From positions 1-64,000 of the forward strand of contig NZ_JANUCQ010000005.1 of assembly GCF_024807035.1 (NCBI RefSeq): a DNA stretch of 64,000 bases. Reading direction: 5' to 3'. Positions 15,405 through 35,979 of the stretch are shown piece by piece. This DNA comes from Methanococcus voltae PS. GTDB lineage: Archaea; AGJL01; Methanococci; Methanococcales; Methanococcaceae. Each line of letters begins with the position of its first letter. Position 1 is the first letter of the stretch. The notes beneath the pieces are model-generated. The model worked only from the letters and a program-made list of their open reading frames with translations, ran no database searches and was not told the origin of the DNA. The position numbers and the translations under genes were made by a program.

Positions 15405-15833
15405 TTATTCCTTATTCTTTTCGTCAGGGAATGCTTTTTCGATTTTTTCGCCATGCGGACAAGTTGCGGGTTTTTTCATGTACACGTAGAGTCTTTCGAT
15501 TGTATCATCACTCATCGAGTGTTCTAATTTACAAGCTTCGTTACAAGCATCTTTTAAATCTACACCTAAGCAATCAACTAAAAAATGTTCTATAATTAAG
15601 TGCTTTCTTAATATTTTTCTTGCAATTAATTCGCCTTTTTCATCTAATTTTATCCCTACGTAAGGTTCATATATGATATAACCTTCGCTACTTAATTTTT
15701 TAGCCATACCTGTGACAGCGGCAGGCTTAACACCCAGTAAGTTTGCCAACTCTGTTGTTTTTACGGGTCTTTGCTCTTTTCGTGTAAATATATGAATATG
15801 TTCAAGATAATCTTCAATATTTGGAGAAACCAT
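15405..15833 (-). CDS. DtxR-family iron-dependent transcriptional regulator
   Basis: A 142-residue metalloregulator. Residues 1-60 form the winged helix (IEDYLEHIHIFTRKEQRPVK..., then ELANLLGVKPAAVTGMAKKL), and residues 60-140 the dimerisation/metal domain. EACKLEHSMSD near residue 103 keeps the Cys-X2-Glu-His pattern of iron-type DtxR/IdeR rather than the all-carboxylate pattern of MntR, suggesting Fe(II) sensing. It lacks the C-terminal SH3-like domain of long DtxR proteins. It is divergent from feoA, whose product is itself a FeoA/SH3-like domain. The start follows GGTGATTTA. Regulation of feoA and of itself is likely but inferred. Confidence 0.88.
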   Translation of the reverse strand: MVSPNIEDYLEHIHIFTRKEQRPVKTTELANLLGVKPAAVTGMAKKLSSEGYIIYEPYVGIKLDEKGELIARKILRKHLIIEHFLVDCLGVDLKDACNEACKLEHSMSDDTIERLYVYMKKPATCPHGEKIEKAFPDEKNKE

Positions 15834-16243: not shown

Positions 16244-16450
16244 ATGGAAAGTATTTTATCAAAAAACCCAGGTTCATACACTGTATTAGAAGTAAACGGT
16301 GGAGCTTGTAGAAAATTTTACGAACTCGGTATTATTCCAGGATGTAAATTGACCGTATTAAATAAAAGTCAAGGTCCTTTATTAGTTAGAATAGGAAACA
16401 GTAAAATAGCTATTGGTCGAGGAATGGCTGATAAAATCCTTGTAAAATAA
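16244..16450 (+). CDS. feoA: FeoA-domain protein
   Basis: A 68-residue SH3-like FeoA domain: PGSYTVLEVNGGACRKFYEL, GIIPGCKLTVLNK, GPLLVRIGNSKIAIGRGMADKILV. FeoA proteins are small cytosolic partners of the ferrous iron transporter FeoB. No feoB gene lies next to it; the following gene is on the other strand. The start follows AAGGGTGATTTT. The divergent DtxR-type gene is the likely regulator. It could alternatively act as a separate SH3-like accessory domain of that regulator. Confidence 0.88.
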   Translation: MESILSKNPGSYTVLEVNGGACRKFYELGIIPGCKLTVLNKSQGPLLVRIGNSKIAIGRGMADKILVK

Positions 16451-17619: not shown

Positions 17620-19428
17620 TTATAAAATTAAGTCATAATCGTCTAATTCTGAATAATCCATTATTCTATAATGTGTTTCAATTTTTACAGGTATTTTATT
17701 AACATTTAAGTATGCAAATGGATTTGTGCCCCCCAAAGTTACATATCCTAGCATTTCGCTTTCTACTCTTATACCGCACAAGTCATTGTTTGGTTTGCCA
17801 TATTCTAAAATCGAATTCCAACCTAAATCGTCGTAAATTTCTTCAATTTTTGATTTTGAGAACATTGGTACCTTTCTAATGCCTGCTAATAGGGTGGTTT
17901 TGCCATCCGATTTATCAAAAAATACCTCGTGAGGGTCTAAAGAAGTACCTTCGTAAGATATAGCTTCTATAAACCTCATTTCGGGTCTTTCTAATAAGCC
18001 TCCATAGTATGGAAGTACGGGGATTTGATTATTAAGAAGTATACCATCAAAAGTCAATGAGCAAATTGTATAAATATTTAAGAAACCATTTTTAACATCT
18101 TCTTCAATCTTTAATTTATTAGAAATCGATAAATCTTTTTTGTATACTTCTTTTAATAATTTTAAAACATCTTCTTCATTTTTTTCATTTTCGAGCTTAT
18201 TTAGCTGATTTAAATCTATTTTTGCCATATTTACAATAATTTGACCTGATTCATTCTTTATATCAAATTTTACTTCGTGCATCATCGAAATCATTTTTGA
18301 TAAAACGGGTTTGACGTTATAATCTTTTAAAACATTTAAACGTTTTAAATCTTCTATATTGCATATGTCATAACCCTTTGTAGTAGGTTTACCGTAGTTT
18401 TTAAACTTGTACTTGTTTAAAAAGTCGTCAGTAACTTCTATTGGTTCGATAATGTTTTCCTTAGGCACTGGAATTTTTGGATTGTCTATTATATTAGTAC
18501 TCGGATTAATTTCTAAGGCATAACCTAGCTCCACAGGTGGGCAAAGCGGAGTAAGACCGCCTATTAGAGCTACTCCTATCTCTTCATCGTTTAAATTTAT
18601 TCCCAGTATGTTATTTTCCCCGTAACATATAACAGATTTCAAATCATCTTTTTTCAAAAGCTGTTTAAAGTCATTCAACTTTGACTTTGGAATAACCCTA
18701 AAATTAGCAGGTATGTATCCTTCGCCATTTTCCATTACACCCAATACATCGGTCTTTTTTTGCATTATGAAAGCTATTAATGGGTCTACGGATGATTTTT
18801 TGAATTCAATGACACCTTTAAAGTTAACAGGCTCACCGTCTTCATATTTAACAACCCCGCCGTGTTTTGGCATAGGCATTATTCCATTTTTAATCAAATA
18901 ATTGTCAAAATTCACATTACACAGTGTTTCAACTTTTAATTTTGAAATATTGTTTGTTATTTCATTTGTCAATCCTTCCATTTTTAAATAATTTCCAGTG
19001 CTAAAACCTTTCATAAAACTAGATAAAATTAAATCTTTTAATTTATCAACGGTTTTATTCCCCAAGTTTATATCATTTGTATTATTTAAACTACCTTCTA
19101 AATCAAATATTCCTGTGTTTATAATTATTGTTTCTGGATAGTTATTTTTTATAATTTTATCATATATATTGGCGGAAACGGAACCTATACGGTGAGCTAC
19201 ATTAGCTTTTTGTAATTCTTCAGTTCCTTTTTCGGTTATAATCCTGCCGGAATAACCTACTCGCTTTGTTAGTTCTTCATCATCCATAGATTGTAAATGG
19301 TATCTAACCGCACGTTCTCCTATCTCGTATCCGCGTAATTTTAAATCTTCGGCTATTATTTTAGCCCCTATTGGTTTATCATATTTTGAGAGTAAATTCA
19401 AAATCGCAATATTTAGGTTTTTAGTCAT
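17620..19428 (-). CDS. nrpR: Nitrogen regulatory repressor NrpR
   Basis: NrpR represses nitrogen assimilation genes in methanogens and is released by 2-oxoglutarate. The N-terminal winged helix (residues 1-70: LLSKYDKPIGAKIIAEDLKL, then ERAVRYHLQSMDDEELTKRVG) is followed by two tandem NrpR (DUF128) domains, each with a GTSxDP-like motif: KSSVDPLIAF near residue 222 and EGTSLDPHEVF near residue 505, and with related openings MPKHGGVV and LPYYGGLL. At 602 residues it is longer than usual for Methanococcus; the extra length includes hydrophilic stretches near residues 110-125 and 405-430. The start follows AGGTGAGGGA. No perfect GGAA-N6-TTCC operator was seen in its upstream region. Confidence 0.92.
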   Translation of the reverse strand: MTKNLNIAILNLLSKYDKPIGAKIIAEDLKLRGYEIGERAVRYHLQSMDDEELTKRVGYSGRIITEKGTEELQKANVAHRIGSVSANIYDKIIKNNYPETIIINTGIFDLEGSLNNTNDINLGNKTVDKLKDLILSSFMKGFSTGNYLKMEGLTNEITNNISKLKVETLCNVNFDNYLIKNGIMPMPKHGGVVKYEDGEPVNFKGVIEFKKSSVDPLIAFIMQKKTDVLGVMENGEGYIPANFRVIPKSKLNDFKQLLKKDDLKSVICYGENNILGINLNDEEIGVALIGGLTPLCPPVELGYALEINPSTNIIDNPKIPVPKENIIEPIEVTDDFLNKYKFKNYGKPTTKGYDICNIEDLKRLNVLKDYNVKPVLSKMISMMHEVKFDIKNESGQIIVNMAKIDLNQLNKLENEKNEEDVLKLLKEVYKKDLSISNKLKIEEDVKNGFLNIYTICSLTFDGILLNNQIPVLPYYGGLLERPEMRFIEAISYEGTSLDPHEVFFDKSDGKTTLLAGIRKVPMFSKSKIEEIYDDLGWNSILEYGKPNNDLCGIRVESEMLGYVTLGGTNPFAYLNVNKIPVKIETHYRIMDYSELDDYDLIL

Positions 19429-19654: not shown

Positions 19655-20464
19655 TTAATTAGGTAAGCTATCTACTATATCAATGCTGTTAGCGATTAAA
19701 ATACCAGGGTAACTTCTTAACATGATTTTTCCTTCTACTTTAAGTACTGAACCAGATTTTATGTCCTCTTCATTACATAATACTTTTGTTTCAGGACTTA
19801 CTCTTATAAATAATGGGGTATTAGCGCTTGTGTTTATTTTTATATCGTATACGCCATTTTCATCTTTTTCCGAAATGTTTACGATGGTTCCGTATGTGTA
19901 ACTTGGTAATTCGTATTCTTTTATTACTTCTACGCTGTTAGCAACCAAAATACCCGGGTAACTCATTAACATAATGTCTCCTTGTACTTTAATAGCTGCT
20001 CCTTCTTCAATTTCCCCAGTGGTAGTTATGATTTTGGTTTCATTTGTTACGCCAATAAATAAGACTGTTTTTTCACTTGTGTTTATTTTTATTTTGTAAT
20101 TACCGTGTTCGTCCTCTTCTAAAATTTCTATAATTTTACCGTATGTATAATTTTCTTCTAATTCTAATTCGCTAGTTTTATTTTCATCTGTGATATTATT
20201 TGAATTATTAATATTGTCAATATTATCTGTATTATCGGAGGTATCTTCAGTATTAAATCCGAAGAAATTTAAAATTTTATTCCATATATCCACTAATAAG
20301 TTAGATACTGTATATTCGTTATTTGTTTCTGTTTCATTGATTTCGGCACTTATCAAAACTGGTTTGACATTTTCAGAGCTCGAATTTTCCGAGATTGCAA
20401 AAACTGGCACGGTAAATAAAGAACCGATTACCATTAATAGCATTGCAAGTTTTTTTATATTCAT
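19655..20464 (-). CDS. Secreted protein with two tandem OB-like repeats
   Basis: Not recognised as a named family. The 269-residue protein starts with a signal peptide (MNIKKLAMLLMVIGSLFTVPVFA). A Ser/Asn/Asp-rich linker covers residues about 70-105. Two tandem repeats of about 75 residues follow: each begins YTYG(K/T)I, contains a D(E)xG-Y-IKINTS segment, a FI-V--ETK strand, and ends SYPGI L(V/I)ANS. The alternating strands suggest two small beta-barrels such as OB folds, exposed outside the cell. The start follows TTGGTGATAAA. It is divergent in function from both neighbours; no partner is evident. Confidence 0.65.
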   Translation of the reverse strand: MNIKKLAMLLMVIGSLFTVPVFAISENSSSENVKPVLISAEINETETNNEYTVSNLLVDIWNKILNFFGFNTEDTSDNTDNIDNINNSNNITDENKTSELELEENYTYGKIIEILEEDEHGNYKIKINTSEKTVLFIGVTNETKIITTTGEIEEGAAIKVQGDIMLMSYPGILVANSVEVIKEYELPSYTYGTIVNISEKDENGVYDIKINTSANTPLFIRVSPETKVLCNEEDIKSGSVLKVEGKIMLRSYPGILIANSIDIVDSLPN

Positions 20465-20588: not shown

Positions 20589-21749
20589 TTAATTTCTAAT
20601 TTTTTTAGCAATTACGATAAGATGACCTTTTTTTATATTATTGTGATAATTATTTATATCTTTTAAAGATTTTTTCTCTTCCAACGAGAAAATATCTACT
20701 ATTTCAAAGCCTTTTTCTTCTAAATGAGTTATATATCCATCCAAATTTAAGCTATTTTTTAAGGTATGGCAAACTTTTCCTTTTTTGGCCCCTGCAAAAC
20801 TAAACATATTCCAATCCATATTATCGAAAGCTTTTCTAGTAGCGTATTTTTTACTAGTATTTTCAGGAAAAATTTGTTTAGCTGCAAATATGCCGTTTAA
20901 AGCCGTTGCTTCACAAATTTTATCAAGTACTTCAGGAGTTTTACAATCTGGACTATTTGACGTAAATATTAGGTCATAGCCTTCTGGATTTGAATCATCC
21001 AGCGTATCCACAAAGTTATTTTTAAAATAATTGCCTGGTATTATGGATACTCTTTCAGAGCCATATTCTTCAATATATTTTTTTGTTTCTTCACAAATTT
21101 TAGGTAAATCAAACACTTTACATTTTGAGTCTTCATTTAAGTATGATAAAGCGATACCGTATAAACCGTGACCGCCTGCAACATCTAAAATGCTTTTGGC
21201 ATTTTTAATGTCTTCAAAGCCTTTTAAATAGTCAATAGTAGATTTTAATTCACCTGTCCTACAATCAATTGCCATTCTTTTAACTGCTTCAGGGGAGGAA
21301 GAACCTTTTTTAGTTTTTAATTCTCCAGATTTTAAAGTTTTATCAAGATTAAGCCACTTTTCAATAAATCGTGTGTTTTTATGATATCGGATAAGACTAC
21401 CCATATTACTAAATTCCGATTCTTGATTTAAATAAATCTTTGCAACTTCTGAAGTTTCGTAATATATTATATTGCTGTCATAAGACCGATTATATCTCTT
21501 TATTAATCCAAATTGAACTAAAGCATCTAATATGCTTTCTAATAAATTATCATTTTCCTTAAAATCTTGTTTGATGTACCAAGACGCTATTTCTTCAAAA
21601 GTTTTTGGTTTTTCTAGTAGTCCAAATACATTATAATCTAAACAGTACTTTAATAAAAAGAATTTTCTTAAACCTATGTACGCGTCTTCAAAAAGATTTT
21701 CTATTTGTTCGGGCCCTACACTAGGGGTCTCTAATACATTTTTTGCCAT
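20589..21749 (-). CDS. SAM-dependent methyltransferase, array copy 1
   Basis: First by coordinate of four paralogous class I methyltransferases (386 residues). Residues 1-110 form a helical dimerisation/winged-helix region (VGPEQIENLFEDAYIGLRKF). ILDVAGGHGLYGIALSYL near residue 190 is the SAM-binding motif I and KCKVFDLPKICEE the second. The architecture is that of plant/antibiotic O-methyltransferases (PF00891-like), but the catalytic His-Asp-Trp segment of those enzymes is not present: the equivalent region reads TSNSPDCKTPEV. Substrate unknown. The start follows GGTGTGGAGA. It lies last in the transcription direction of the methyltransferase run. Confidence 0.8.
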   Translation of the reverse strand: MAKNVLETPSVGPEQIENLFEDAYIGLRKFFLLKYCLDYNVFGLLEKPKTFEEIASWYIKQDFKENDNLLESILDALVQFGLIKRYNRSYDSNIIYYETSEVAKIYLNQESEFSNMGSLIRYHKNTRFIEKWLNLDKTLKSGELKTKKGSSSPEAVKRMAIDCRTGELKSTIDYLKGFEDIKNAKSILDVAGGHGLYGIALSYLNEDSKCKVFDLPKICEETKKYIEEYGSERVSIIPGNYFKNNFVDTLDDSNPEGYDLIFTSNSPDCKTPEVLDKICEATALNGIFAAKQIFPENTSKKYATRKAFDNMDWNMFSFAGAKKGKVCHTLKNSLNLDGYITHLEEKGFEIVDIFSLEEKKSLKDINNYHNNIKKGHLIVIAKKIRN

Positions 21750-21890
21750 TTCTCCACACCCTTTGGATATTTATTCTAATTATTTTTAATTATTTTTAAT
21801 TATTTTTAATATACTAATATACTAATATATTTTATCGAAAATATTGTATATTTAAAAAATTATATTATAAAATAAAAAAGATAAATTTAA

Positions 21891-23075
21891 TTATTCTCTA
21901 ATTTTTTTAGCAACTACAATATGATTACCTGTTTTTATATTGCTGTAGTGGTGTTTTTTAACAGCATGATGGTGATTTTTGTCACTGTTTAAAGATTTCT
22001 TGTCTTCTACAGAGAAAATACCCAATATTTCAAAGCCTTTTTCTTCTAAGTAGCTTACATATCCGTCTAAAGTTAAACTATTTTCAAAGGTGTAGCAAAC
22101 TTTTTCTTTTTTAGTTCCCGTAAAACTAAACATATTCCAATCTATACCGTCAAAAGCTTTTTTAGTAGCGTATTTTTTACCGATATTTTCTGGGAAGGCT
22201 TGTTTATTTGCAAATATACCATTTAAAGCCGTTGCTTCACAAATTTTGTCAATCACTGCTGGATTTTTACCCCCTGGATTGTATGAACTAAATATTAAAT
22301 CATACCCTTCTGAATTTGAATCATCTAGCGTATCTATAAAATTATCTGTAAAGAAGTTACCTGCTACTGTTGATACCCTATCAGAACCATATTCTTCAAT
22401 GTATTTCTTTGTTTCTTCGCAAACTTCAGGTAAATCAAACACTTTACATTTTGAGTCTTCATTTAAGTATGATAAAGCGATACCGTATAAACCGTGACCG
22501 CCTGCAACATCTAAAATGCTTTTGGCATTTTTAATGTCTTCAAAGTGTTTTAAATAGTCAATTGTTAATTTTAATTCGCCTGCTCTACAATCAATTGCCA
22601 TTCTTTTGATTATGTCGGGGAAGAAAGAACCTTCTTCAGTTTTTAACTCTCCGGATTTCAAAGTTTCTTCTAAGTTAATCCAACGGTTTGCCCTTTCACC
22701 GTAGGTGAAGAAAGGAGCTAACGAGTCTATTTTGCTAAATTCTGAATTTGGACTTAAGTATGTTTTTGCTATTTCGGTAGATTTATAAACTACATTTTCT
22801 GAGTTGTAAGAAGTGTGATAAACCTTTACTAATCCAAACTGGATTAAAGCATCTAAAATGCTTTCTAATAAATTATTATTGGGTTTAAAACCTTGCTCTT
22901 CAAACCATACTGCGATTTCTTCAAAAGTTTTGGGTTTTTCTAGGAGTTCAAAGACATTATATTGTAAACAGTACTTTAATAAAAAGAATTTTCTTAAACC
23001 TAAGTAAGCATCTTCAAAAAGATTTTCTATTTGTTCAGGTCCAACTTTTGGGGTCTCTAATACATTTTTAGCCAT
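21891..23075 (-). CDS. SAM-dependent methyltransferase, array copy 2
   Basis: 394-residue paralogue with the same plan: VGPEQIENLFEDAYLGLRKF at the N-terminus, ILDVAGGHGLYGIAL for SAM binding, and NHIVVAKKI at the C-terminus. It carries SSYNPGGKNPAV where the other three have a Cys (SPDCK or SPGCK), and a His-rich stretch (NHHHAVKKHHYSN) near residue 370 absent from the others, which might bind metal. Start follows ATGGTGAAAAA. The gap to the next copy upstream (23262) is 186 bases. About 109 bases around motif I are identical to copy 1. Confidence 0.8.
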   Translation of the reverse strand: MAKNVLETPKVGPEQIENLFEDAYLGLRKFFLLKYCLQYNVFELLEKPKTFEEIAVWFEEQGFKPNNNLLESILDALIQFGLVKVYHTSYNSENVVYKSTEIAKTYLSPNSEFSKIDSLAPFFTYGERANRWINLEETLKSGELKTEEGSFFPDIIKRMAIDCRAGELKLTIDYLKHFEDIKNAKSILDVAGGHGLYGIALSYLNEDSKCKVFDLPEVCEETKKYIEEYGSDRVSTVAGNFFTDNFIDTLDDSNSEGYDLIFSSYNPGGKNPAVIDKICEATALNGIFANKQAFPENIGKKYATKKAFDGIDWNMFSFTGTKKEKVCYTFENSLTLDGYVSYLEEKGFEILGIFSVEDKKSLNSDKNHHHAVKKHHYSNIKTGNHIVVAKKIRE

Positions 23076-23261
23076 TTTTTCACCATAACTTTTTTTATTA
23101 ATTTTTAAATGCTATTATTTTTAATTTAAGTTATAATTAGCATAATATAATGAATAATTGGTTTAATTTAAGAATTTAAATAGGAATTATTCTATTAATT
23201 ATTATTTTATTAGCTTATTATTTTATTTTTATTTAATATTCATTTTAGAATTATATTTTTA

Positions 23262-24437
23262 CTATGCCTTTACTTTTTTAGCAACGATTATATAGCTTCC
23301 CATCTGGTTGTTCATTAGTTTAGGGTTACATTTATAGCTAACTTCATTTTTAACGCTTTTTCTTTCGTCAAATGAATATATGTCTAATAATTCAAAGCCT
23401 TTTTCTTTCATATAACTTAAGTATCCATCTAATGTCAAATCGTTTTTAAAAGTATTGCTTGCCCCTTCTTTTCCGAGTGCAGAGAATGAAAACATATTCC
23501 AATCGATATTTTCAAAACTTTGTCTAAGCTGGTATTTATCCCCAATTCCTTCTGAAAATATTTGTTTATTTACAAATACCCCATTTGGAGCCATTGCGTC
23601 GTAAATTTTATCAATTACTTCAATACTTTTACAACCTGGGCTATGGGATGTAAATACTAAATCATACCCTTCTGGGTTATCGGAATCTAATGTTTCGACA
23701 ATTGTACCTTTGTAATAGTCACCAGGTGCGGTAGTTACTCTATCGGAACCGTATTCTGCAATGTATTTCTCTGTTTCTTCGCAAACTTTTGGTAAATCAA
23801 ATATTTTACATTTTGAGTCTTCATTTAAGTATGATAAAGCGATACCGTATAAACCGTGACCGCCTGCAACATCTAAAATGCTTTTGGCATTTTTAACTTC
23901 CTCAAATTGAGATAAATAATCAATTGTAGCTTTTAATTTACGTGAACGGCAATCAGTAACCATTCTTCGAACTGCTTCACTGAAAAATGAGTTTTCCTTT
24001 AATTTAGGTTCTTTTCCCATAAATGTATCTTCTAAATTAATCCATTTTTTAGCTCTGCCTTTGTATGTAAGTAATGGTGATACGGAGTCTATTCCACTAA
24101 ATTCAGATTTTGGATTTAAGTAAATATTTGCAACTTCAGAAGTCTCGTAATAAGTTTCGGCACTGTTATGTGACCGATTGTATTTATTTACTAATCCAAA
24201 TTGCACTAATGCATCCAATACATTCAATAGCAAATTATCATTGGATTTAAAACCTTTTTCTTCAAACCATATTTTAAGTTGTTCAAAAGTTTTTGGCTCT
24301 TCTAGAAGTTCATACATATTGTACTTTAAACTGAATTCCATTAAGTAAAATTTTCTTAAACCTAAATATGCATCTTCAAAAAGATTTTCAATATGTTCTG
24401 GCCCTAATTTTGGACATTCCATTACGTTTTTGCTCAT
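23262..24437 (-). CDS. SAM-dependent methyltransferase, array copy 3
   Basis: 391-residue paralogue; starts MSKNVMECPKLGPEHIENLF, with the ATG at 24437 chosen because TAGGTGGAAAAA is its ribosome site (a GTG three codons upstream lies inside it). Motif I is the same ILDVAGGHGLYGIAL; the post-motif segment reads SHSPGCKSIEV. C-terminus YIIVAKKVKA. It resembles copy 4 more than copies 1 and 2 (shared KYNMYE, SGID(S/T)VSP, KSVKNxxSYxCNPK). Gap to copy 4 is 77 bases, so these two may be one transcript. Confidence 0.8.
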   Translation of the reverse strand: MSKNVMECPKLGPEHIENLFEDAYLGLRKFYLMEFSLKYNMYELLEEPKTFEQLKIWFEEKGFKSNDNLLLNVLDALVQFGLVNKYNRSHNSAETYYETSEVANIYLNPKSEFSGIDSVSPLLTYKGRAKKWINLEDTFMGKEPKLKENSFFSEAVRRMVTDCRSRKLKATIDYLSQFEEVKNAKSILDVAGGHGLYGIALSYLNEDSKCKIFDLPKVCEETEKYIAEYGSDRVTTAPGDYYKGTIVETLDSDNPEGYDLVFTSHSPGCKSIEVIDKIYDAMAPNGVFVNKQIFSEGIGDKYQLRQSFENIDWNMFSFSALGKEGASNTFKNDLTLDGYLSYMKEKGFELLDIYSFDERKSVKNEVSYKCNPKLMNNQMGSYIIVAKKVKA

Positions 24438-24514
24438 TTTTTCCACCTAAATTAATAAATTAGTAAATAATATAATACTATATTAGTAAATTAGTAAATA
24501 ATATGTTAAATCAA

Positions 24515-25690
24515 TTATTGTTTTATTTTTTTAGCAACGACTATATAACTCCCCATTTTGTTAGTCATTATTTTAGGGTTGCATATATAACTTGGCTGAT
24601 TTTTAACGCTTTTTCTTTCCTCAAGTGAATATATATCCAATATTTCAAAGCCTTTTTCTTCCATATAACTTAGATATCCATCCAGTGTTAAATCATATTT
24701 AAAAGTGTTATTAATTCTTGATTTCTCGAATCCTGAAAATGAAAACATATTCCAGTCTATATTTTCTAAACTCTTTTTAACGTTGTATTTATCACCAATA
24801 CCTTCCGTAAATATTTGTTTATTTATAATTAAACCATTTAAAGCGGTTGCTTCACAAATCTTGTCTATTATTTCAGTTGTCTTACAACCGGGGCTATTTG
24901 ACGTAAATATTAAATCATAGCCTTCAGGGTTTGAATCATCCAGTGTTTCTACAAAGTCATTTTTGAAATAATCGCCAGGTAGTGCAGATACTCTATCAGA
25001 GCCGTATTCTTCAATGTATTTTTTTGTTTCTTCACAAACGTGTGGCAATTCATATATCTTACATTTTGAGTTTTCATTTAAGTATGATAAAGCTATACCA
25101 TACAAACCGTGACCGCCTGCAACATCCAAAATGCTTTTAGCGTTTTTAACTTCCTCGAATTGTGATAGGTAATCTAGGGTATATTTTAACTTACCTGCTC
25201 GGCAGTCTAAAACTGTTATCTTAACTAAATCAGTGAAAAACGATTTTTCCTTTACTTCTAGCTTTTTTTCTTTCAATGCGTCGTCTAATTTAGTCCATCG
25301 CTTAGCTCTGTTTTTATATAGTAAATAAGGTGAAACTGTATCTATCCCGCTAAATTCGGATTTTGGGTTTAAATAAATATTTGCAACTTCTGCAGTTTCG
25401 TAATAGATTTTATCGTCATTATAAGACCGGTTATAGCTATTTACTAACCCCAATTGGACTAAAGCATCTAATATGCTTTCTAATAAATTATTATTTGGTT
25501 TAAAACCCTGCTCTTCAAACCATACAGCGACTTCTTCAAAAGTTTTTGGTTTGCTTAGGTATTCATACATATTATACTTCAAAGTGAAATATAATAAGTA
25601 GAATTTTCTTAAACCTAAGTAAGCATCTTCGAAAAGGTTTTCTATTTGTTCGGGTCCTACACTAGGGGTTTCTAATACATTTTTAGCCAT
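24515..25690 (-). CDS. SAM-dependent methyltransferase, array copy 4 (first transcribed)
   Basis: 391-residue paralogue, the most upstream of the run. Same architecture; motif I ILDVAGGHGLYGIAL, then CKIYELPHVCEE and TSNSPGCKTTEI. The DNA around motif I differs at several silent positions from copies 1-3. Start follows CCGAGGCAGTTAA. The 279-base gap to the solute-binding protein gene at 25970 holds AT-rich DNA with GATTGATAA repeats and may carry a promoter for the run. Confidence 0.8.
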   Translation of the reverse strand: MAKNVLETPSVGPEQIENLFEDAYLGLRKFYLLYFTLKYNMYEYLSKPKTFEEVAVWFEEQGFKPNNNLLESILDALVQLGLVNSYNRSYNDDKIYYETAEVANIYLNPKSEFSGIDTVSPYLLYKNRAKRWTKLDDALKEKKLEVKEKSFFTDLVKITVLDCRAGKLKYTLDYLSQFEEVKNAKSILDVAGGHGLYGIALSYLNENSKCKIYELPHVCEETKKYIEEYGSDRVSALPGDYFKNDFVETLDDSNPEGYDLIFTSNSPGCKTTEIIDKICEATALNGLIINKQIFTEGIGDKYNVKKSLENIDWNMFSFSGFEKSRINNTFKYDLTLDGYLSYMEEKGFEILDIYSLEERKSVKNQPSYICNPKIMTNKMGSYIVVAKKIKQ

Positions 25691-25969
25691 TTAACTGCCT
25701 CGGTATTATTAATTAATTGATTAATTAATTTGTTAAAAGTTTTAAAATATTTGTAATTAGATTACGTGATACTATTGATAATATTTGTAAAATTTATAAG
25801 ATTGATAAGATTGATAATATTTGTATTGCTAAATAATTAATATATAGTATCTTATTAGGTAATGTCTTATTAAATAATAACTAATTTAATCAAATAAAAA
25901 AAATAAGTAAATGGAAATTTTATAATTTTAATTCTTTTACTTATTTATCATTTTTTTACAGTACGTGAT

Positions 25970-27148
25970 TTATAAATCTTCCAATTTTTCGAAACCTAAA
26001 TTTCTATCGGAAAGTCTTTCATAAGCTGGCTTTCCAGTGAAGAAAGTATATAATTCGTCTGCTTTTTCAACAGGGTCGATGTCTTCAAACTGTTCTGGAT
26101 AAAGTACCTTACCAATGTAGTAAGAATCTGCTATTCCACTAGCTTTGTTAAATCCATACCAGCAGTATGGGATTAATCTGTAGGTATTACCATTTTTAAC
26201 AGCGTCTAAATTGCCAAATTCCGGCTTCTCTAAATCTTTTAAAATTAAATCCATTGAAGCTGAATTTATAAATAAATAATCTGGATTCCAAGTCACCAAT
26301 TGTTCATCACTTACGCTATAAACTTTACCTTTTTTTGAAATATTGTACGCTACGTTGTTAGCCCTATTATTAGCGCCTAAAAATTCGAAAGGCATCCAAT
26401 GTGGGTCAGTTGTAGTTATACCGTGTCCGCCACTGTATACTCTACCGCCAATATAGATACTTGGACGTTTATCTGATTTTGAAGCTCTAGTCCTCAAATC
26501 TAATTTACATTCTTCTAATTTATTTACTACAGCGTCAGCTCTTTCTTCTTTACCCAATACTTTACCCATTACTCTTAATGATTCTGAATATTTTTCGTTT
26601 TGGTCTTCTGAACCGGTTGTATCCATGAAAACTACTACAACAGGAACACCTATTTTCTTTTGGATTTCGTCTGCTAAATCAGCTTGATAACCTAAGAATA
26701 TCATATCAGGATTTGCAGCAATAATTTTTTCGTAGTAATAGCCAGAACCTGCTTTACCGACCACTGGTAAATCTGTTAATTCCGGGTTTGCTGCAACATA
26801 AGGTAATGCCATAGCACTATCTTTATTACCTTCTGCAACTTCTACGCCTACTACTTTATCAACTGCGTCTAAATAAACTATTTCTCTTAAACAACAGCCT
26901 AAACCAATTACGCGATTTACGTTTTTCGGCACTTGCACTGTCCTACCTGCCATGTCTGTAACAGTTATGAATTCCGTATTTTTATCTGCATCTAAACCTT
27001 TTGGGTCTAGATTATTGTTCCCCTCGTTGCTTTTAATGTCATTCGTTGATTCAGTACTATCGCCAATACATCCACAACTCATTGCTACGATTGCTATCAT
27101 AAGTACATTAAAAGCCATTATAATTGATTTTTTCAAAGCTTTAGACAT
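25970..27148 (-). CDS. ABC transporter solute-binding lipoprotein, iron/corrinoid class, copy 1
   Basis: 392 residues, PF01497-like periplasmic-type binding protein. Residues 1-28 are a lipoprotein signal ending in MSCGCIG, so the mature protein is probably lipid-anchored outside the membrane. TVTDMAGRTVQVPKNVNRVIGLG near residue 62 is the family N-terminal motif. Pocket-region variants: GLGCCLREIVYL and LIPYCWYGFN. The family captures ferric chelates, haem or cobalamin. No permease or ATPase is adjacent. Start follows AAGGACGATAAA. Its upstream region carries an 80-bp block shared with copy 5. Confidence 0.85.
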   Translation of the reverse strand: MSKALKKSIIMAFNVLMIAIVAMSCGCIGDSTESTNDIKSNEGNNNLDPKGLDADKNTEFITVTDMAGRTVQVPKNVNRVIGLGCCLREIVYLDAVDKVVGVEVAEGNKDSAMALPYVAANPELTDLPVVGKAGSGYYYEKIIAANPDMIFLGYQADLADEIQKKIGVPVVVVFMDTTGSEDQNEKYSESLRVMGKVLGKEERADAVVNKLEECKLDLRTRASKSDKRPSIYIGGRVYSGGHGITTTDPHWMPFEFLGANNRANNVAYNISKKGKVYSVSDEQLVTWNPDYLFINSASMDLILKDLEKPEFGNLDAVKNGNTYRLIPYCWYGFNKASGIADSYYIGKVLYPEQFEDIDPVEKADELYTFFTGKPAYERLSDRNLGFEKLEDL

Positions 27149-27534
27149 TTTATCGTCCTTTGGTTACTTCCATATTTTTTAGTATATTTTTTAGTATATC
27201 TTTTAGTTTAAAATTTATTTTTAATTATTTAATTCCAATTATGTTATTATATTGAGGACAAATAATTAAATGGTTGGTAATAATTTTTTAGAATTTATGA
27301 ATTGATATTCATACAAATTAAGAAATAGTATTACTAATTAATATAATTTGCGATATAATCACAATAGAAAAACTAATTTATAAAACTAAAAATAAAAAAG
27401 ATAACAATTAACAGGTTTAAACAATTATAACTCTTAAAAAATCGAAAATAAATCTAGGATTTATAAAATAAGTTCAATTACTTAAAATATAAAATATGGA
27501 TAATAATTAGGTATATATATCATCATATAGTGCA
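27149..27534. other. Intergenic control region of solute-binding protein copy 1
   Basis: Contains the shared promoter block at 27277-27356, listed separately. The remainder is AT-rich with no reading frame. Confidence 0.5.
27277..27356. promoter_or_regulatory. Shared 80-bp regulatory block A with ATGAAT-N4-ATTCAT dyad
   Basis: This block is 79/80 identical, by direct reading, to 33230-33309 upstream of copy 5. It contains the inverted repeat ATGAAT-TGAT-ATTCAT at 27297-27312 and TAGTATTACTAATTAATATAA. Conservation in an otherwise diverged intergenic region suggests operator or promoter function. Confidence 0.6.
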
Positions 27535-28725
27535 TTATTCAGCCTCCCATTTTCCGAATTTTAAGTTATATTCGGAGAGTTCATTGTATACCGGTTTTCC
27601 ATTAAAGAATGTATGTATTTCGTCAGCCTTTTCGATAGGGTCAATATCCTCAAACTGCTCTGGATAGAGTACTTTGCCAATGTAATAAGAATTTGCCAAA
27701 GCATTATCTTCATTAAATCCATACCAGCAATAAGGTAATATTGTATACATTTTATTTTCAGAAACTGCTCTTAAACTTTTAAATTCCGGTCTTTTTAATT
27801 CTTTTGCTATTTTAGGCACTGTGGCGGAATTCGCAAAAATATATTCTGGATTCCAAGATATTAATTGTTCCTTGTTTACCGTACAGTCGTTACTTACTTC
27901 TGAAATATTATAAGCAACGTTATTTGCCCTATTATTTGACCCTAAGAATTCAAATGATGGCAAATGCGGGTCAGTTGTAGTTAATCCAGTAACTCCTCCA
28001 AATACCCTACCTGCAACGTAAATACTAGGTTTTTTATCAGATTTTGAAGCTCTTAAAGCTAAATCTGTTTTATATTCTTTCATTTTACTTAATATTTCTT
28101 CAGCTCTTTCTTCTTTATCTAATATTTTACCCATTAATCTTAAAGATTGTCTGTATTTATTATTTTGAGTACCCGTACCCGTAGGGTTAATATAAGTAAC
28201 TACTACTGGTATACCCACTTTTTCTTGTATATCGTCCGCTGATTCAGCATTGAAACCTATAAATATTACATCAGGCTTCACTTTTATAATTCGTTCATAG
28301 TAATAATTAGAACTCGCTTTACTTACTTGAGTTAAATCCATTAATTCCTTATTTGCAGCAATATATGGCATTCTAGTACCTACTTTTTTATCGCCTTCTT
28401 TTACCTCGACACCAACTACTTTATCCTTAGCACCTAAGTAAATTACTTCCCTTAATGAAGAGCCCAAACCAATTACTCTATTAACTTTTTTTGGAACTTT
28501 AACGATTCTACCTGCCATATCTGTAATTTCTATGTATTCTACATTTTTATCTAAGTTATTATCAATAGTATTGGTGCTATTATTGATAGTAACGCCATTA
28601 TCTTTATCTTCATCTATTATTACGGGAGTTGCAGCCCCGCCCATACACCCGCAACTAATTGTTATTAATACAAGCATAAACATACCGAATAGTATATTTT
28701 TTGGCTTTTTTAAATTTTTATCCAT
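27535..28725 (-). CDS. ABC transporter solute-binding lipoprotein, iron/corrinoid class, copy 2
   Basis: 396 residues. Lipoprotein signal ends ITISCGCMGG. EITDMAGRIVKVPKKVNRVIGLG near residue 66 opens the binding domain; pocket-region variants GLGSSLREVIYL and LPYCWYGFN. C-terminal KVLYPEQFEDIDPIEKADE is shared by all copies. The start follows GGGAGGACAAT, the strongest ribosome site in the array. The region upstream, 28726-29000, has its own AT-rich promoter-like DNA and a 13-bp tandem repeat. Confidence 0.85.
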   Translation of the reverse strand: MDKNLKKPKNILFGMFMLVLITISCGCMGGAATPVIIDEDKDNGVTINNSTNTIDNNLDKNVEYIEITDMAGRIVKVPKKVNRVIGLGSSLREVIYLGAKDKVVGVEVKEGDKKVGTRMPYIAANKELMDLTQVSKASSNYYYERIIKVKPDVIFIGFNAESADDIQEKVGIPVVVTYINPTGTGTQNNKYRQSLRLMGKILDKEERAEEILSKMKEYKTDLALRASKSDKKPSIYVAGRVFGGVTGLTTTDPHLPSFEFLGSNNRANNVAYNISEVSNDCTVNKEQLISWNPEYIFANSATVPKIAKELKRPEFKSLRAVSENKMYTILPYCWYGFNEDNALANSYYIGKVLYPEQFEDIDPIEKADEIHTFFNGKPVYNELSEYNLKFGKWEAE

Positions 28726-28894
28726 ATTGTCCTCCCAATTATATCATTTATTTATTATTTTATTTTATCAAAGTATTATATCAATAGTTAATCACACTTA
28801 ATTAATTAAAATTAATATATTTAATTGTAGTTAAATAGTTTAATAATACTTAATATTAGTACAATACTATATAAATTTAACTGTTAACCTAACT

Positions 28895-28946
28895 AATAAA
28901 TAAAAATAATAAATAAAAATAATAAATAAAAATAATAAATAAAAAA
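28895..28946. repeat. 13-bp AT tandem repeat, 4 copies
   Basis: Unit AATAAATAAAAAT repeated four times between solute-binding protein copies 2 and 3. Confidence 0.85.
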
Positions 28947-29000
28947 GACGATAATATTATTTAATTAGTTAATTACTATTTTAATTATTTTGGAGTCATT

Positions 29001-30188
29001 TTATTGATTTTCTGACCCTAATTCTAATTTTTTAAACCCGCCTATTTTTCCAGTTAAATCGTCATAAGCTGGTTTTCCATAGAAGAATGTGTATACTTCG
29101 TCTGCTTTTTCAACAGGGTCAATATCCTCAAACTGTTCTGGATAAAGTACCTTTCCAATATAGTAAGAATCTATTATCGCTGTACCTTTATTATATAAGT
29201 ACCAACGGTATGGTAATACCTGATAAACGTTATTATTTGAAACTGCATCTAAGTTTTTGAATTCTGGTTTTTGAAATTCTTTTGAAACTTTATCTATTGA
29301 AATAGAACTTATAAATATACATTCTGGGTTCCATTCTAATAATTGCTCTTTACTTATTGCCATACCTTTACTTTCGTTACAAAGGTCATAAGCCACGTTG
29401 TTTGCTTTATTATTAGCGCCTAAATATACTAATGGTGGCCATTTTGCGTCTGTCGCAGTTAATCCATTTATTCCTTGGTATGCTCTACCGCCCAGATAAA
29501 CAGTTTGATTATTGGTGGACTTTGAAGCTCTTAAAGCTAAATCTGCTTTATATTCTTCAATTTTATTTAATATTTCTTCTGCTCTTTCTTCTTTATCTAA
29601 TATTTTACCCATTAATCTTAATGATTGAGTATATTGTTCATTTTGATTTTCTGTACCCACAGGGGCTGTATAAACAACAACTACAGGAATTTGTAATTTT
29701 TCTTGCATATCATCTGCTACATCAGATTCATACCCTATGAATATAACGTCAGGGTTTATTTGCAAGATTCTTTCATAATATTGTTCAACGTTGCCTGATT
29801 CACTTACAATAGGCAAATCCATTAATTCTTTATGTGTTAATATATATAACGTTCTTGAACCTACTTTTTCATCACTTTCTAATTTTTCTACGCCGACTAC
29901 TTTATCAGTCGCCTGTAAATAAACTATTTCTCGCAATGAAGAACCCAATCCAATTGTTCGGTCTACTTTTTTCGGCACTCGAACTGTTCTACCCGCCATA
30001 TCTGTAACAGTTATGTATTCGGTATTTTTATCTAGATTATTATCTTTAATACTTATATTATCATTATCGGTAGTTGATGCGGTTGTCGGTTCAGTAACCT
30101 CACTCGTACAACCACAACTCATTAAGATAGTTACAACCGCAAAAATGCTTAAAATCGTAACTAATGATTTTTTCAGTGTTTTATTCAT
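29001..30188 (-). CDS. ABC transporter solute-binding lipoprotein, iron/corrinoid class, copy 3
   Basis: 395 residues. The signal peptide (MNKTLKKSLVTILSIFAVVT ... MSCGCTS) is almost identical to that of copy 4. TVTDMAGRTVRVPKKVDRTIGLG near residue 61. Pocket-region variants GLGSSLREIVYL and LPYRWYLYN: Arg replaces the Cys of copies 1, 2 and 5. Start behind GAGAAGATAAG. Upstream DNA and the signal-peptide code form a duplicated block with copy 4. Confidence 0.85.
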   Translation of the reverse strand: MNKTLKKSLVTILSIFAVVTILMSCGCTSEVTEPTTASTTDNDNISIKDNNLDKNTEYITVTDMAGRTVRVPKKVDRTIGLGSSLREIVYLQATDKVVGVEKLESDEKVGSRTLYILTHKELMDLPIVSESGNVEQYYERILQINPDVIFIGYESDVADDMQEKLQIPVVVVYTAPVGTENQNEQYTQSLRLMGKILDKEERAEEILNKIEEYKADLALRASKSTNNQTVYLGGRAYQGINGLTATDAKWPPLVYLGANNKANNVAYDLCNESKGMAISKEQLLEWNPECIFISSISIDKVSKEFQKPEFKNLDAVSNNNVYQVLPYRWYLYNKGTAIIDSYYIGKVLYPEQFEDIDPVEKADEVYTFFYGKPAYDDLTGKIGGFKKLELGSENQ

Positions 30189-30327
30189 CTTATCTTCTCA
30201 TATTTTCTCATCAGTTTTGTAGTTTGAAATCTAAATATACAATACTATTGTTACATATATAGTATATATAACCTTACTATTTGTAAAGATAAGTTTAATT
30301 AACTATTAAAAAGTAATACTAAATAAT
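30098..30327. repeat. Duplicated promoter-plus-signal-peptide block B, unit 1
   Basis: Nearly identical to 31592-31821, 1494 bases away. It covers the signal-peptide codons of copy 3, its ribosome site, a TATA-like AGTATATATAACC and AGTAATACTAAATAAT. A further 35-bp match follows after a short diverged gap. Confidence 0.85.
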
Positions 30328-30500
30328 CCCCTATTAAATAACATTTAAAATAAAATATTATTTAGAGCATAAAAAATCATTGGGAAGTAATAATTCAATA
30401 AAATATTAAAAATATTAAAAATATTAATGTACTAACATAAAATAAAATAATAAAAATAATAAAAATCAAAGTAAAAAATAGAAAATAGGTAATAATTTAA
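30189..30500. other. Intergenic region upstream of solute-binding protein copy 3
   Basis: First 140 bases belong to duplicated block B; the rest is AT-rich, ending in runs of AATATTAAA repeats, with no frame. Confidence 0.5.
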
Positions 30501-31682
30501 TTATTTTATGTTTACTTTTTCAAATCCTAAATTCTTTTTAGACATTTCTTCATATACGGGATTTCCATTAAAGAATATATATATTTCGTCTGCTTTTTCA
30601 ACAGGGTCAATGTCTGCAAATTGGTCGGGATAAAGTATTTTTCCAATATAATAAGCGTCAGCTATTGCAGTACCTTTGTTGTAGGAATATAATCTGAAAG
30701 GAGGTACTTTATAAACGTTATCATTTTTAATGGCACTTAATTCTTTAAATTCTGGCTTTTCTAAGTCTTTTTCAACCATTTTAAATGCAGTAGATGGTAT
30801 AAACATGTATTCAGGGTTCCAGTTTATTAATTGTTCTTCACTTACGGATACTCCTTTACTTACATTGTCAACACCATAAGCCACGTTATTAGCCCTATTG
30901 TTAGTTCCTAAATATTCGAATGGTGGCCATCTAGGGTCTGTAGTGGTTAAGCCATTTGTTCCATAATAGGCTCTACCTGGAATATATACACTTGGATTTT
31001 TATCAGATTTTGAAGCTCTTGACATTAAATCTGCTTCGTATTCTTTCATTTTGTCAATTATTTCATTGGCTCTTTCTTCTTTATCTAATATCTTACCCAT
31101 TAATCTTAAGGATTGGTCATATTTTGCATTCTGTTCTTTTGAACCAATTGCAGTGGCATGAACAACAACTACTGGAATTTGTAATTTTTCTTGCATATCG
31201 TCTGCTATTTCTGCTTCCTGATTTCCTAAAAATATTACATCTGGGTTTGCTGTAAGGATTCTTTCGTAATATTGCTGGGTTTTACCTGCTTTATTTACAA
31301 TAGGTAAATCCGCTAATTCTGGGTTTGCTAGCATATATGGCATTCTCATACCTATTTTTTCATCACTTTCTACTTCTTCTATACCTATAACTTTATCTTT
31401 TACGCCTAAGTAAACTATTTCTCTTAATGTACAGGCTAAACCAATTGTTCGGTCTACTTTTTTCGGCACTTGAACTGTTCTACCCGCCATATCTGTAACG
31501 GTTATGAATTCCGTATTTTTATCAGCATCTAAACCTTTTGGGTCTAAATTACTATTTTCGTCGTTGTTTTTAATGTCGCTTGATTCGGTAGCCTCACTCG
31601 TACAACCACAACTCATTACGATAGTTACGACCGCAAAAATGCTTAAAATCGTAACTAATGATTTTTTCAGTGTTTTATTCAT
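30501..31682 (-). CDS. ABC transporter solute-binding lipoprotein, iron/corrinoid class, copy 4
   Basis: 393 residues. Signal peptide like copy 3. After it, the linker SSDIKNNDENSNLDPKGLDA resembles that of copy 1 rather than copy 3, suggesting a mosaic. Pocket-region variants GLACTLREIVYL and PPFRLYSYN: again Arg at the position that is Cys in copies 1, 2 and 5. Ends FEKVNIK. Start behind GAGAAGATAAG. Confidence 0.85.
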   Translation of the reverse strand: MNKTLKKSLVTILSIFAVVTIVMSCGCTSEATESSDIKNNDENSNLDPKGLDADKNTEFITVTDMAGRTVQVPKKVDRTIGLACTLREIVYLGVKDKVIGIEEVESDEKIGMRMPYMLANPELADLPIVNKAGKTQQYYERILTANPDVIFLGNQEAEIADDMQEKLQIPVVVVHATAIGSKEQNAKYDQSLRLMGKILDKEERANEIIDKMKEYEADLMSRASKSDKNPSVYIPGRAYYGTNGLTTTDPRWPPFEYLGTNNRANNVAYGVDNVSKGVSVSEEQLINWNPEYMFIPSTAFKMVEKDLEKPEFKELSAIKNDNVYKVPPFRLYSYNKGTAIADAYYIGKILYPDQFADIDPVEKADEIYIFFNGNPVYEEMSKKNLGFEKVNIK

Positions 31683-31821
31683 CTTATCTTCTCATATTTT
31701 CTCATCAGTTTTGTAGTTTGAAATCTAAATATACAATACTATTGTTACATATATAGTATATATAACCTTACTATTTGTAAAGATAAGTTTAATTAACTAT
31801 TAAAAAGTAATACTAAATAAT
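31592..31821. repeat. Duplicated promoter-plus-signal-peptide block B, unit 2
   Basis: Partner of 30098-30327. Only a few base differences are seen over about 230 bases, including the non-coding part, which points to recent duplication or gene conversion. Confidence 0.85.
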
Positions 31822-31983
31822 AACGATTTAAATAATTTAAAAAATAAAATATTATTTAGAGCATAAAAAATCATTAAAAAATAATAATCTAAAAATCGTA
31901 AAATAAGATTAAAAATAAATAAATTAAAAAATAAAAATAAGATTAAAAAATAATAAAAAAATAATAAAAATAGAAGGATTAAA
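31683..31983. other. Intergenic region upstream of solute-binding protein copy 4
   Basis: First 140 bases are block B unit 2; the rest is AAAATAAT-rich with no frame. Confidence 0.5.
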
Positions 31984-33174
31984 TTATGCTTCTAATTTAC
32001 CATATCCACCCATTCTATTGGCTATTTCTTCGTAAGCTACATTGCCGTCGAAGAACATATATATTTCGTCTGCTTTTTCTTCAGGGTCAATATCTGCAAA
32101 TTGCTCTGGATAGAGTACCCTGCCCACGTAGTAAGCATTTGCTATTGCAGTATCTTTGTTAAATGCGTACCAGCAGTAAGGCAATACTTTGTACACTTTA
32201 CCGTTTTTAACTGCATTTAATCCCTGGAATTCAGGTTTTACTAAATCAGCTGTAACTTCATTCATTGAAGCTTCGCTTACAAATATGTACTCAGGATTCC
32301 AAGATACCACTTGTTCTTTGCTAACTTCTTTACCTTCACTAATCTTTGAAACGTTATAAGCTATATTATTAGCTCCTAAAAATTCGAATGGTGGCCATCT
32401 AGGGTCTGTTGTTGTAATTCCATGAGCTCCGTTGTAAGCTCTACCTGCAACATATGCTGTTGGGTGAACTGTAGCTTTTGAAACTCTAGATTTTAAATCT
32501 TCTTTGTATTCTTCCATTTTGTCCAATACTTCGTTGGCTCTTTCTTCTTTATCTAATATTTTACCCATTAATTTTAAAGAGTCTTCATATTTTTTATTTT
32601 GACCTTCTGAGCCGATTGCTGCAGTGTAAACAACCACTACAGGAATGTTTAATTTACTTTGCAAATCTTCCGCTGCATCTTTATTATTTCCTATGAATAT
32701 TACATCAGGATTCATTTTAAGAATTGCTTCATAATTATAGTTAGCTCCTGCTTTACCTGCTATAGGTAAGTCTATTAATTCAGGGTTTGCTGCTAAGTAC
32801 GGTAATTCAGTACCGCAAGGGAATTTATCATCGTCAGATTTTGCTTTAACACTTTCCCTCATTTCTATTGCTATTACTTTATCTTCTGAATCTAAGTATA
32901 CTATTTCTCTTAATGAACAGCCCAAGCCAATTATTTTATTTATTTTGGTTGGAACTTGTATGGTTCTACCTGCCATGTCTGTAACAGTTATGAATTCCGA
33001 GTTTTTGGTCGTTTCTACACCTTTACTTTGATTTAATTCATTGTTGGTGTTTGCACTATTGAGATTTGCGGAAGGTTCTGTATTTCCTCCAATACACCCA
33101 CAACTCATTACAGTAGCTATGACCATAAAAACACTGAAAACCATAACCAATGATTTTTTTAAAGTTTTATTCAT
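31984..33174 (-). CDS. ABC transporter solute-binding lipoprotein, iron/corrinoid class, copy 5 (first transcribed)
   Basis: 396 residues. Signal peptide ends VMSCGCIGG. TVTDMAGRTIQVPTKINKIIGLG near residue 64; pocket-region variants GLGCSLREIVYL and LPYCWYAFN. It has an insertion (SVKAKSDDDKFPCGTE) near residue 108 containing an additional Cys, and lacks the NNRANN segment of the others (reads GANNIAYN). Start follows GACGATGATATT. It is divergent from the SLC1-type transporter at 33496. Confidence 0.85.
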   Translation of the reverse strand: MNKTLKKSLVMVFSVFMVIATVMSCGCIGGNTEPSANLNSANTNNELNQSKGVETTKNSEFITVTDMAGRTIQVPTKINKIIGLGCSLREIVYLDSEDKVIAIEMRESVKAKSDDDKFPCGTELPYLAANPELIDLPIAGKAGANYNYEAILKMNPDVIFIGNNKDAAEDLQSKLNIPVVVVYTAAIGSEGQNKKYEDSLKLMGKILDKEERANEVLDKMEEYKEDLKSRVSKATVHPTAYVAGRAYNGAHGITTTDPRWPPFEFLGANNIAYNVSKISEGKEVSKEQVVSWNPEYIFVSEASMNEVTADLVKPEFQGLNAVKNGKVYKVLPYCWYAFNKDTAIANAYYVGRVLYPEQFADIDPEEKADEIYMFFDGNVAYEEIANRMGGYGKLEA

Positions 33175-33495
33175 AATATCATCGTCTTTTTTGGTTTTAA
33201 TTATATTAGTAATTTAGTTTTAACGTATAGTAATAATTTTTTAGAATTTATGAATTGATATTCATACAAATTAAGAAATAGTATTACTAATTAATATAAT
33301 TTACGATATGATATTATCAAAACTAATATATTCTTATATTCTTATATTATTATTTAAGATTATATCAGGGTTATTTGCCGATATTAAGACTATTATTCAC
33401 CTTTTTATTTAAAAAAGTTAATAAATGAATTAAATTAATCAAAAAGTATATAATTATGAAATATTAAAGTATATTTTATAACTTGGAGGTGCATT
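33175..33495. other. Divergent intergenic region, solute-binding protein copy 5 / SLC1 transporter
   Basis: Holds the second copy of regulatory block A (33230-33309). The right half is AT-rich, with GGAGGTGC just before 33496 as ribosome site for the transporter. Confidence 0.5.
33230..33309. promoter_or_regulatory. Shared 80-bp regulatory block A, second copy
   Basis: Matches 27277-27356. Dyad ATGAAT-TGAT-ATTCAT at 33250-33265. It is 56 bases from the start of copy 5, against 129 bases for copy 1. Confidence 0.6.
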
Positions 33496-34959: not shown

Positions 34960-35658
34960 TTAAAAAGTTATAATACAAACAGCCATATATGAGAATTCCA
35001 AGCCATTTTCTATGTTTTTAAGTAATTCACCTAATTTATATGTACTTATTTTTTCATTAGGATAGGATAAATTTTCGCAAATTGTAATTCTTACATCTTT
35101 TAAGTGATAATCAACGTTTTTAAGATTAAAACTAACATTATTTTTGTTTAACATGTATTCAATGTCTTTTTTTATGTCACTTGGTAAAAATATTACACTG
35201 TGATTATTTATTACCATATTATACAGCAATTCTTGATTATGCTCTTTACCATGCAGTGTTAATATAGCGTAATCATCCCAAGATATTTTTAATCTTGCGC
35301 AAGCTACTTGTATCGAAGAAATGCCTGATATAACGGATATATCCTTTTTATCGACGCCTAAATTTATCATAGTCTTTAATAAACCACTAAAACACGGGTC
35401 TCCAGTAGATAGAATACCAATATCTTTATTTTTAAATTTATCGTCAAAAGCTATTTCTTTTAAAGTTTCTTTAAGATTTTTGGATAAATATATTATTTCT
35501 TTATTATTTAAATCGTTTGAATTGATAGAATCAATTGATTTAATCGATTCTATGCTTCTTTTGCTACCTACTAGAATATCTAGTTTCTCTATTGTATCTA
35601 GTGCTTTTAGGGTTATTAAATCGCTACTTCCTGCTCCTATTCCTATAATATAAATCAT
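34960..35658 (-). CDS. cbiE: Cobalt-precorrin-7 C5-methyltransferase (CbiE)
   Basis: CbiE methylates C5 in the anaerobic cobalamin pathway. MIYIIGIGAGSSDLITLKAL is the family opening; STGDPCFSGLLKTM near residue 85 and VISGISSIQVACARL near 108 are further tetrapyrrole methylase motifs. It is separate from CbiT, as usual in archaea. The ATG at 35658 was chosen because GGATGAAACT precedes it; the ATG ten codons earlier has no ribosome site. About 232 residues, slightly long, with a Ser/Asn/Asp-rich SIDSINSNDLNN stretch near residue 45. With cobA this is the second corrinoid gene of the window. Confidence 0.9.
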   Translation of the reverse strand: MIYIIGIGAGSSDLITLKALDTIEKLDILVGSKRSIESIKSIDSINSNDLNNKEIIYLSKNLKETLKEIAFDDKFKNKDIGILSTGDPCFSGLLKTMINLGVDKKDISVISGISSIQVACARLKISWDDYAILTLHGKEHNQELLYNMVINNHSVIFLPSDIKKDIEYMLNKNNVSFNLKNVDYHLKDVRITICENLSYPNEKISTYKLGELLKNIENGLEFSYMAVCIITF

Positions 35659-35979
35659 AGTTTCATCCAACGGTATAATCCTTTTCATTTTTTAATTTTA
35701 ATTTTATTTTTTTATTTATTTTTTTATTTATTGATTAATCATATATCATAATTTACAGTATAGTTTATTCTATTTTTTTATCTTTTTATAACTTTAGATT
35801 TATATTTTATATCTTTTATTTCAAATTTGATATTAAATATATTGATGGAATAATCGATTATATGGTTTATATAATTTTACAAACATATTATTATACACAC
35901 TATAAATTATAAAATAACTACATCCATATAAACTACAAGTCATACGATAAATACGATATAAAGCACGAGGTGTCAGGGT
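35659..35979. other. Divergent intergenic region cbiE / cysS
   Basis: AT-rich without a frame. TATA-like stretches on both strands (for example near 35800 and 35880) could serve the two genes; none is clearly best. Confidence 0.4.

Follow-up and report, generated by a model that had tools for sequence, protein, structure and literature searches.

Within the 64,000-nucleotide stretch of Methanococcus voltae PS analysed here (contig NZ_JANUCQ010000005.1, positions 1 to 64,000; the window), nine open reading frames (ORFs) form an array on the minus strand, in which four methyltransferase genes (MT1-MT4, 20589-25690) are followed by five genes for solute-binding lipoproteins (SBP1-SBP5, 25970-33174). 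The array had been proposed from the sequence alone (the original prediction), and all nine ORFs were confirmed at the predicted positions, free of internal stops. There is no permease or ATPase gene inside the array, whose members are:

20589-21749, minus strand: MT1, methyltransferase with the altered motif SNSPDCK; no ortholog in the sister genome G005
21891-23075, minus strand: MT2, methyltransferase that retains the ancestral motif of the family, SYNPGGK, and has a His-rich loop at its C terminus
23262-24446, minus strand: MT3, methyltransferase with the motif SHSPGCK
24515-25690, minus strand: MT4, methyltransferase with the motif SNSPGCK
25970-27148, minus strand: SBP1, PF01497 lipoprotein
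27535-28725, minus strand: SBP2, PF01497 lipoprotein
29001-30188, minus strand: SBP3, PF01497 lipoprotein
30501-31682, minus strand: SBP4, PF01497 lipoprotein
31984-33174, minus strand: SBP5, PF01497 lipoprotein; nearest solved structure TM0189 (2etv)

Judged by fit to its paralogues, the start codon of MT3 is probably the ATG at 24437 and not the GTG at 24446. The MT paralogues are 58-72% identical to the first MT copy and the SBP paralogues 53-59% identical to the first SBP. In Pfam searches MT1-MT4 passed the PF00891 cut-off, with the PF08100 dimerisation domain weak in some of the copies, and SBP1 and SBP5 lay far over the PF01497 cut-off; a PF01497 search of the genome placed all five SBPs above it. 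Every SBP carries a lipobox-like SCGC around residue 25. Eight of the array genes have collinear orthologs in the sister genome (G005, L040), MT1 being the gene without one, and for these eight dN/dS is 0.06-0.19; the array genes are therefore maintained, under purifying selection. In a third genome (G006, L041) the same place holds one MT and one SBP. The 300 bp upstream of SBP4 are ~94% identical to the 300 bp upstream of SBP3, which marks a recent duplication.

We looked for the missing import machinery across the genome, which holds nine matches to PF01497 and six to PF01032. The closest SBP outside the array (E 1e-94) is encoded on another contig, C4, at 99948-101093, where it adjoins a FecCD permease gene and has an ATPase gene and an FmdE-family gene close by (L018; the permease and ATPase region lies at about 97-102 kb of G000:C4). 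In relatives, namely the M. maripaludis-like genomes G001-G004 and other Methanococcaceae, the counterparts of this permease (59-70% identical) and of the ATPase (62-77%) form a joint cluster with an MT and one to five SBPs. The two genomes that share the window's arrangement, G005 and G006, have the permease as well (92% and 90% identical). Since the permease and ATPase lie on C4 and are clustered with these genes in most relatives, the array appears to be one half of an importer operon that has a methyltransferase as accessory, split off from the rest and expanded in tandem. The statement that no permease or ATPase accompanies these genes is consequently true inside the array and false genome-wide, and a reading without any transporter was rejected because a matching permease and ATPase were found on C4. 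In G019, the permease gene is directly preceded by the decayed remnant of an MT, interrupted by stop codons (L046:13150-13635), while an intact MT lies ~4 kb upstream; this arrangement is a possible intermediate in operon splitting.

The association was then counted across 36 Methanococcales genomes, with a permease ortholog defined by 53% identity or more. Both MT and permease ortholog were present in 23, the permease alone in two (G022 and G028) and neither in 11, and no genome had an MT alone. Within the 22 Methanococcaceae the match was exact, 15 genomes having both and seven having neither, and the permease was kept also in three MT genomes where the MT and permease genes stand apart; as these genomes are related, the counts are not independent events. 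That the two families belong together, as the original prediction held, is borne out: they are neighbours in most of the MT carriers of the Methanococcales and far beyond, which contradicts the refuting condition set in that prediction, namely that the families never adjoin in other genomes. The prediction had also taken the tandem pairing to be undescribed. The pairing itself is not peculiar to the array, but the tandem expansion is.

Scanning GTDB genomes turned up 202 relatives of the MT, and 80 loci were kept, almost all of them belonging to groups known as anaerobes (Archaeoglobi, Methanosarcina, Methanomicrobiales, Methanobacteriaceae, Bathyarchaeota, Atribacteria, Sporomusa, Desulfotruncus and Desulfoluna). 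Together with the Methanococcales loci and the window these gave 94 loci, whose genes were labelled by similarity to seed proteins with importer classes confirmed by Pfam; removal of three loci fetched twice left 91. An uptake component lay within six genes of the MT in 70 of these 91 distinct loci (77%), relative to a background rate of importer proximity that we roughly guess at <10%, taking six FecCD permeases to a genome. The importers were mostly of the FecBCD class, followed by Opp/Nik (13), ZnuA/ABC-3 (10) and Tau (1), and TonB receptors were found near the MT in four bacterial loci. Opp-type permeases at one Methanosarcinaceae and one Eubacteriaceae locus pass the NCBI cut-off for nickel ABC transporter permeases. 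An MT tree built by a quick method requires five or more changes of importer class; the possible minimum is two, and shuffled labels gave a mean of 18.7. The MT has therefore switched importer class several times and tracks something that the importers share, and what is common to these importer classes is metals, free or on ligands. Occurrence of several importer classes beside one MT family points to a metal-on-ligand cargo, and away from corrinoids. These results suggest an uptake module that is widespread and, it appears, undescribed: anaerobes importing scarce metals keep a methylating enzyme by the importer, which probably acts on the carrier molecule of the metal.

The methyltransferases themselves resemble the PF00891 O-methyltransferases (ASMT, DnrK, 3mcz) in having two domains, a dimerisation domain and an S-adenosylmethionine (SAM)-binding fold; consistent with this, the AlphaFold2 model of MT2 (pLDDT 90.6, pTM 0.87) has a two-domain methyltransferase fold. 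They differ from those enzymes in three respects, one of which is the set of importer neighbours. The His-Asp-Trp segment, noted as missing in the original prediction, is indeed absent, and among 69 homologues its place is taken by S-x-N-P-G-G-K, conserved at ~81-97% per residue. The SAM motif of the same homologues reads GGHGLY, its histidine being invariant. The SAM-binding residues are retained in MT1-MT4. MT2 keeps the family motif unaltered, whereas in MT1, MT3 and MT4, which form one clade (SH-aLRT 97), it is altered to S-x-S-P-[GD]-C-K, an alteration that suggests a changed substrate or chemistry. MT2 and its two orthologs alone have a C-terminal loop with 4-6 His, at about residues 368-385 in MT2, that MT3, MT4 and most relatives lack and that is possibly metal-binding. 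In a single-sequence search of the PDB, the closest matches were S-methyltransferases: DtpM, the holomycin methyltransferase, came first and DSYB, a sulfur methyltransferase, next. The substrate of DtpM is a compound whose reduced dithiol form chelates metal. The similarity to DtpM and DSYB/DsyB is remote, however, and a profile search does not favour them over O-methyltransferases, so that sulfur as the methylated atom is a weak lead.

On the side of the binding proteins, the model of SBP5 is good outside the signal and linker and matches 2etv (E 7.5e-36), the structure of Thermotoga TM0189, which is about 40% identical and is annotated as a putative Fe(III) transporter protein. Further solved relatives bind iron complexes, Ni-histidine or molybdate, and the cargo is not readable from structural relatives. 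Compared to known FecBCD/BtuFCD importers (PF01497 and PF01032; TM0189, YiuA, CeuE, MolA), the module has the same SBP family and fold, lipoprotein anchor and permease and ATPase families; it differs in its dedicated methyltransferase gene and, here, in the five extra SBPs and four MTs that stand apart from the permease and ATPase. The Nik/Cnt (Opp-type) importers of nickel and staphylopine-metal and the ZnuABC zinc importers are unrelated classes and do not occur in the array, but such classes adjoin the same MT family in other anaerobes. An MT of this family described together with Nik/Cnt or ZnuABC was not found in the literature.

From the link between MT and importer, which is observed, we infer the metal, its ligand, the methylated atom and the purpose as follows. 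In keeping with the original prediction, the best interpretation is still a cargo of the metal-chelate type, with either the cargo or its chelator being methylated in the cell, and we see an even chance that the array represents half of a metal-chelate uptake module, expanded and detached, with ligand methylation in the cytosol. The five surface lipoproteins would capture related metal-ligand complexes and would probably share the one FecCD permease and ATPase on C4. Inside the cell, the MTs would use SAM to methylate the imported ligand, which would weaken its grip on the metal, or stop it from rebinding, so that the metal is freed. Duplication of both gene types may have let the lineage use several ligand variants. 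The methylated atom may be a thiol, a detail that we hold tentatively and that is suggested because metals in sulfidic, anoxic habitats are often thiol-bound. S-methylation of dithiol chelators is known elsewhere, as with GtmA acting on gliotoxin and the bis-thiomethylated holomycin of Streptomyces (PMC10500201). As a speculative extension, 'methylate to release' might be a general strategy of anaerobes, whereby metals on strong, possibly thiol, ligands enter by whatever ABC importer the lineage possesses and the ligand is then capped in the cytosol by a SAM methyltransferase of a dedicated family, so that the metal is released; in this Methanococcus lineage, SBPs and MTs would have diversified in parallel for several ligands.

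Several observations weigh against cytosolic ligand methylation as the function of the module. Use of the C4 permease by the array SBPs is itself something that we infer from the sequences. The two Methanococcales genomes with a permease and no MT are evidence that the MT is not essential to import. Several proteins of O-methyltransferase fold rank above DtpM and DSYB in the profile search. Finally, the 21 loci without an importer within six genes may differ in function.

The main rival, which we regard as unlikely although ahead of the others, is that the MTs help to make a small secreted metallophore, which the SBPs and permease would take back up once it is loaded. Several lineages repeatedly have genes for small methyltransferases, radical SAM and FmdE-like proteins close to the MT, which might supply additional steps of such a biosynthesis, and metallophore systems import via Fec-type as well as Opp/Nik-type importers. 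However, neither carrier backbone genes nor an exporter stand beside the array, and at most loci the importer and the MT are all that is present. Metallophore synthesis of the nicotianamine type in this genome was rejected, as a genome search for nicotianamine synthase (PF03059) gave no match.

Import of corrinoids or other tetrapyrroles, with the MTs modifying the tetrapyrrole, is improbable. The partner permease does score best against BtuC among the NCBIfam models, but at 232 bits it falls below the equivalog cut-off of 334. Corrinoids matter to nearly all of the carrier organisms, and a tetrapyrrole methylase-family gene (PF00590, corrin-pathway-like) lies at 34960-35688, two genes from the array and also in place in G006; this gene is probably unrelated to the array. 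Opp/Nik-type and ZnuA/ABC-3 importers, beside which the same MT family occurs, are to our knowledge not known to carry corrinoids, and this makes the corrinoid-like molecules of the original prediction less likely as the shared cargo. We attach similarly little weight to the idea that the neighbourhood is historical and that the MTs serve an unrelated housekeeping or secondary-metabolite reaction: the 21 importer-less loci fit it, but the association arose anew with three importer classes that are unrelated, MT and permease still co-occur in genomes where their genes stand apart, and both gene types expanded together. Detoxification, in which the MTs would methylate a toxic metal or metalloid entering with the cargo, is the least probable of all, for the association of the MT family with several metal importers, the extra cysteine in the altered motif of MT1, MT3 and MT4 and the His-rich loop of MT2 are set against an ancestral motif that has no such cysteine and a lack of similarity to arsenic or thiopurine methyltransferases in Pfam and NCBIfam. 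A selenium link was also rejected, as a table of Se-regulated transporters lists no iron-complex binding protein (PMC11097638).

The SBP, permease, ATPase and methyltransferase families are all already known. For their association, the family motif, importer switching and the tandem expansion we found no published description, in a search that left most subscription journals outside. The parts seen of the iron/sulfur proteomics of M. voltae and Methanosarcina barkeri make no mention of a methyltransferase link, and nothing useful was found in the literature on TM0189-TM0191 and MJ0085-MJ0089. In M. maripaludis, MMP1176/1177 and MMP1181 are named iron transport binding proteins, and many mutations have been recorded in MMP1176/1177 of re-sequenced laboratory strains (PMC8479958); by gene order, we take these genes to be counterparts of array genes. 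Anaerobes, and methanogens in particular, have a high demand for iron, nickel and cobalt in habitats where sulfide ties these metals up. Their uptake of bound metals is poorly known, and an MT family that tracks cargo across three unrelated importer classes would mark such uptake systems; its importer-following suggests a previously undescribed step in the cytosol. The genetic tractability of Methanococcus species makes direct testing possible.

Two further side observations concern the genes near the MT. FmdE-family proteins adjoin importers in Archaeoglobi and in the window's genome (L061:4302-4961, L018:3070-3657, L063:4040-5137 and L085:4926-5345, the last recognised by eye only), with that of L063 fused to a TrmO domain, and are a possible further component of the module. 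In G001, one ORF inside the importer cluster (L043:3119-4873), beside a small methyltransferase gene, joins a radical SAM domain to a PF01497 domain; it is odd in that one of the two parts would ordinarily be in the cytosol and the other exposed at the surface, and it may be either a genuine fusion or the product of wrongly joined frames.

The control elements and candidate regulators around the array are:

27266-27359, minus strand: conserved SBP1 promoter stretch with the palindrome TATGAAT-N4-ATTCATA at 27296-27313, a probable operator
33219-33312, minus strand: conserved SBP5 promoter stretch with the same palindrome, TATGAAT-N4-ATTCATA, at 33249-33266, a probable operator
15405-15833, minus strand: DtxR-type metal-dependent repressor, a nearby candidate regulator of the array
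16244-16450, plus strand: FeoA, iron uptake component adjoining the DtxR gene; context only

The ~94 bp stretches upstream of SBP1 and SBP5 are 93% identical to each other, and the palindrome stretch is conserved in two copies in G005 and one in G006. A genome search for the palindrome gave 5 places, compared to 6 for a reversed control, and a wider regulon was rejected as its matches are not above chance; only the two array copies, which are exact and conserved in sister genomes, are meaningful. The genes for FeoA and the DtxR-type repressor lie about 4-5 kb from MT1, and metal regulation of the array is plausible from this context. The three genomes that share this arrangement all have the gene for the nitrogen repressor NrpR (17620-19428 in the window) close to the array, and at L070 an NrpR-like gene lies near a Methanosarcinaceae MT; control of the array by NrpR was rejected, as the window holds no GGAA-N6-TTCC site. 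Directly downstream of MT1, a gene at 19655-20464 encodes a putative secreted protein with a weak, two-stretch match to DUF3221, and is kept in G005 and G006.

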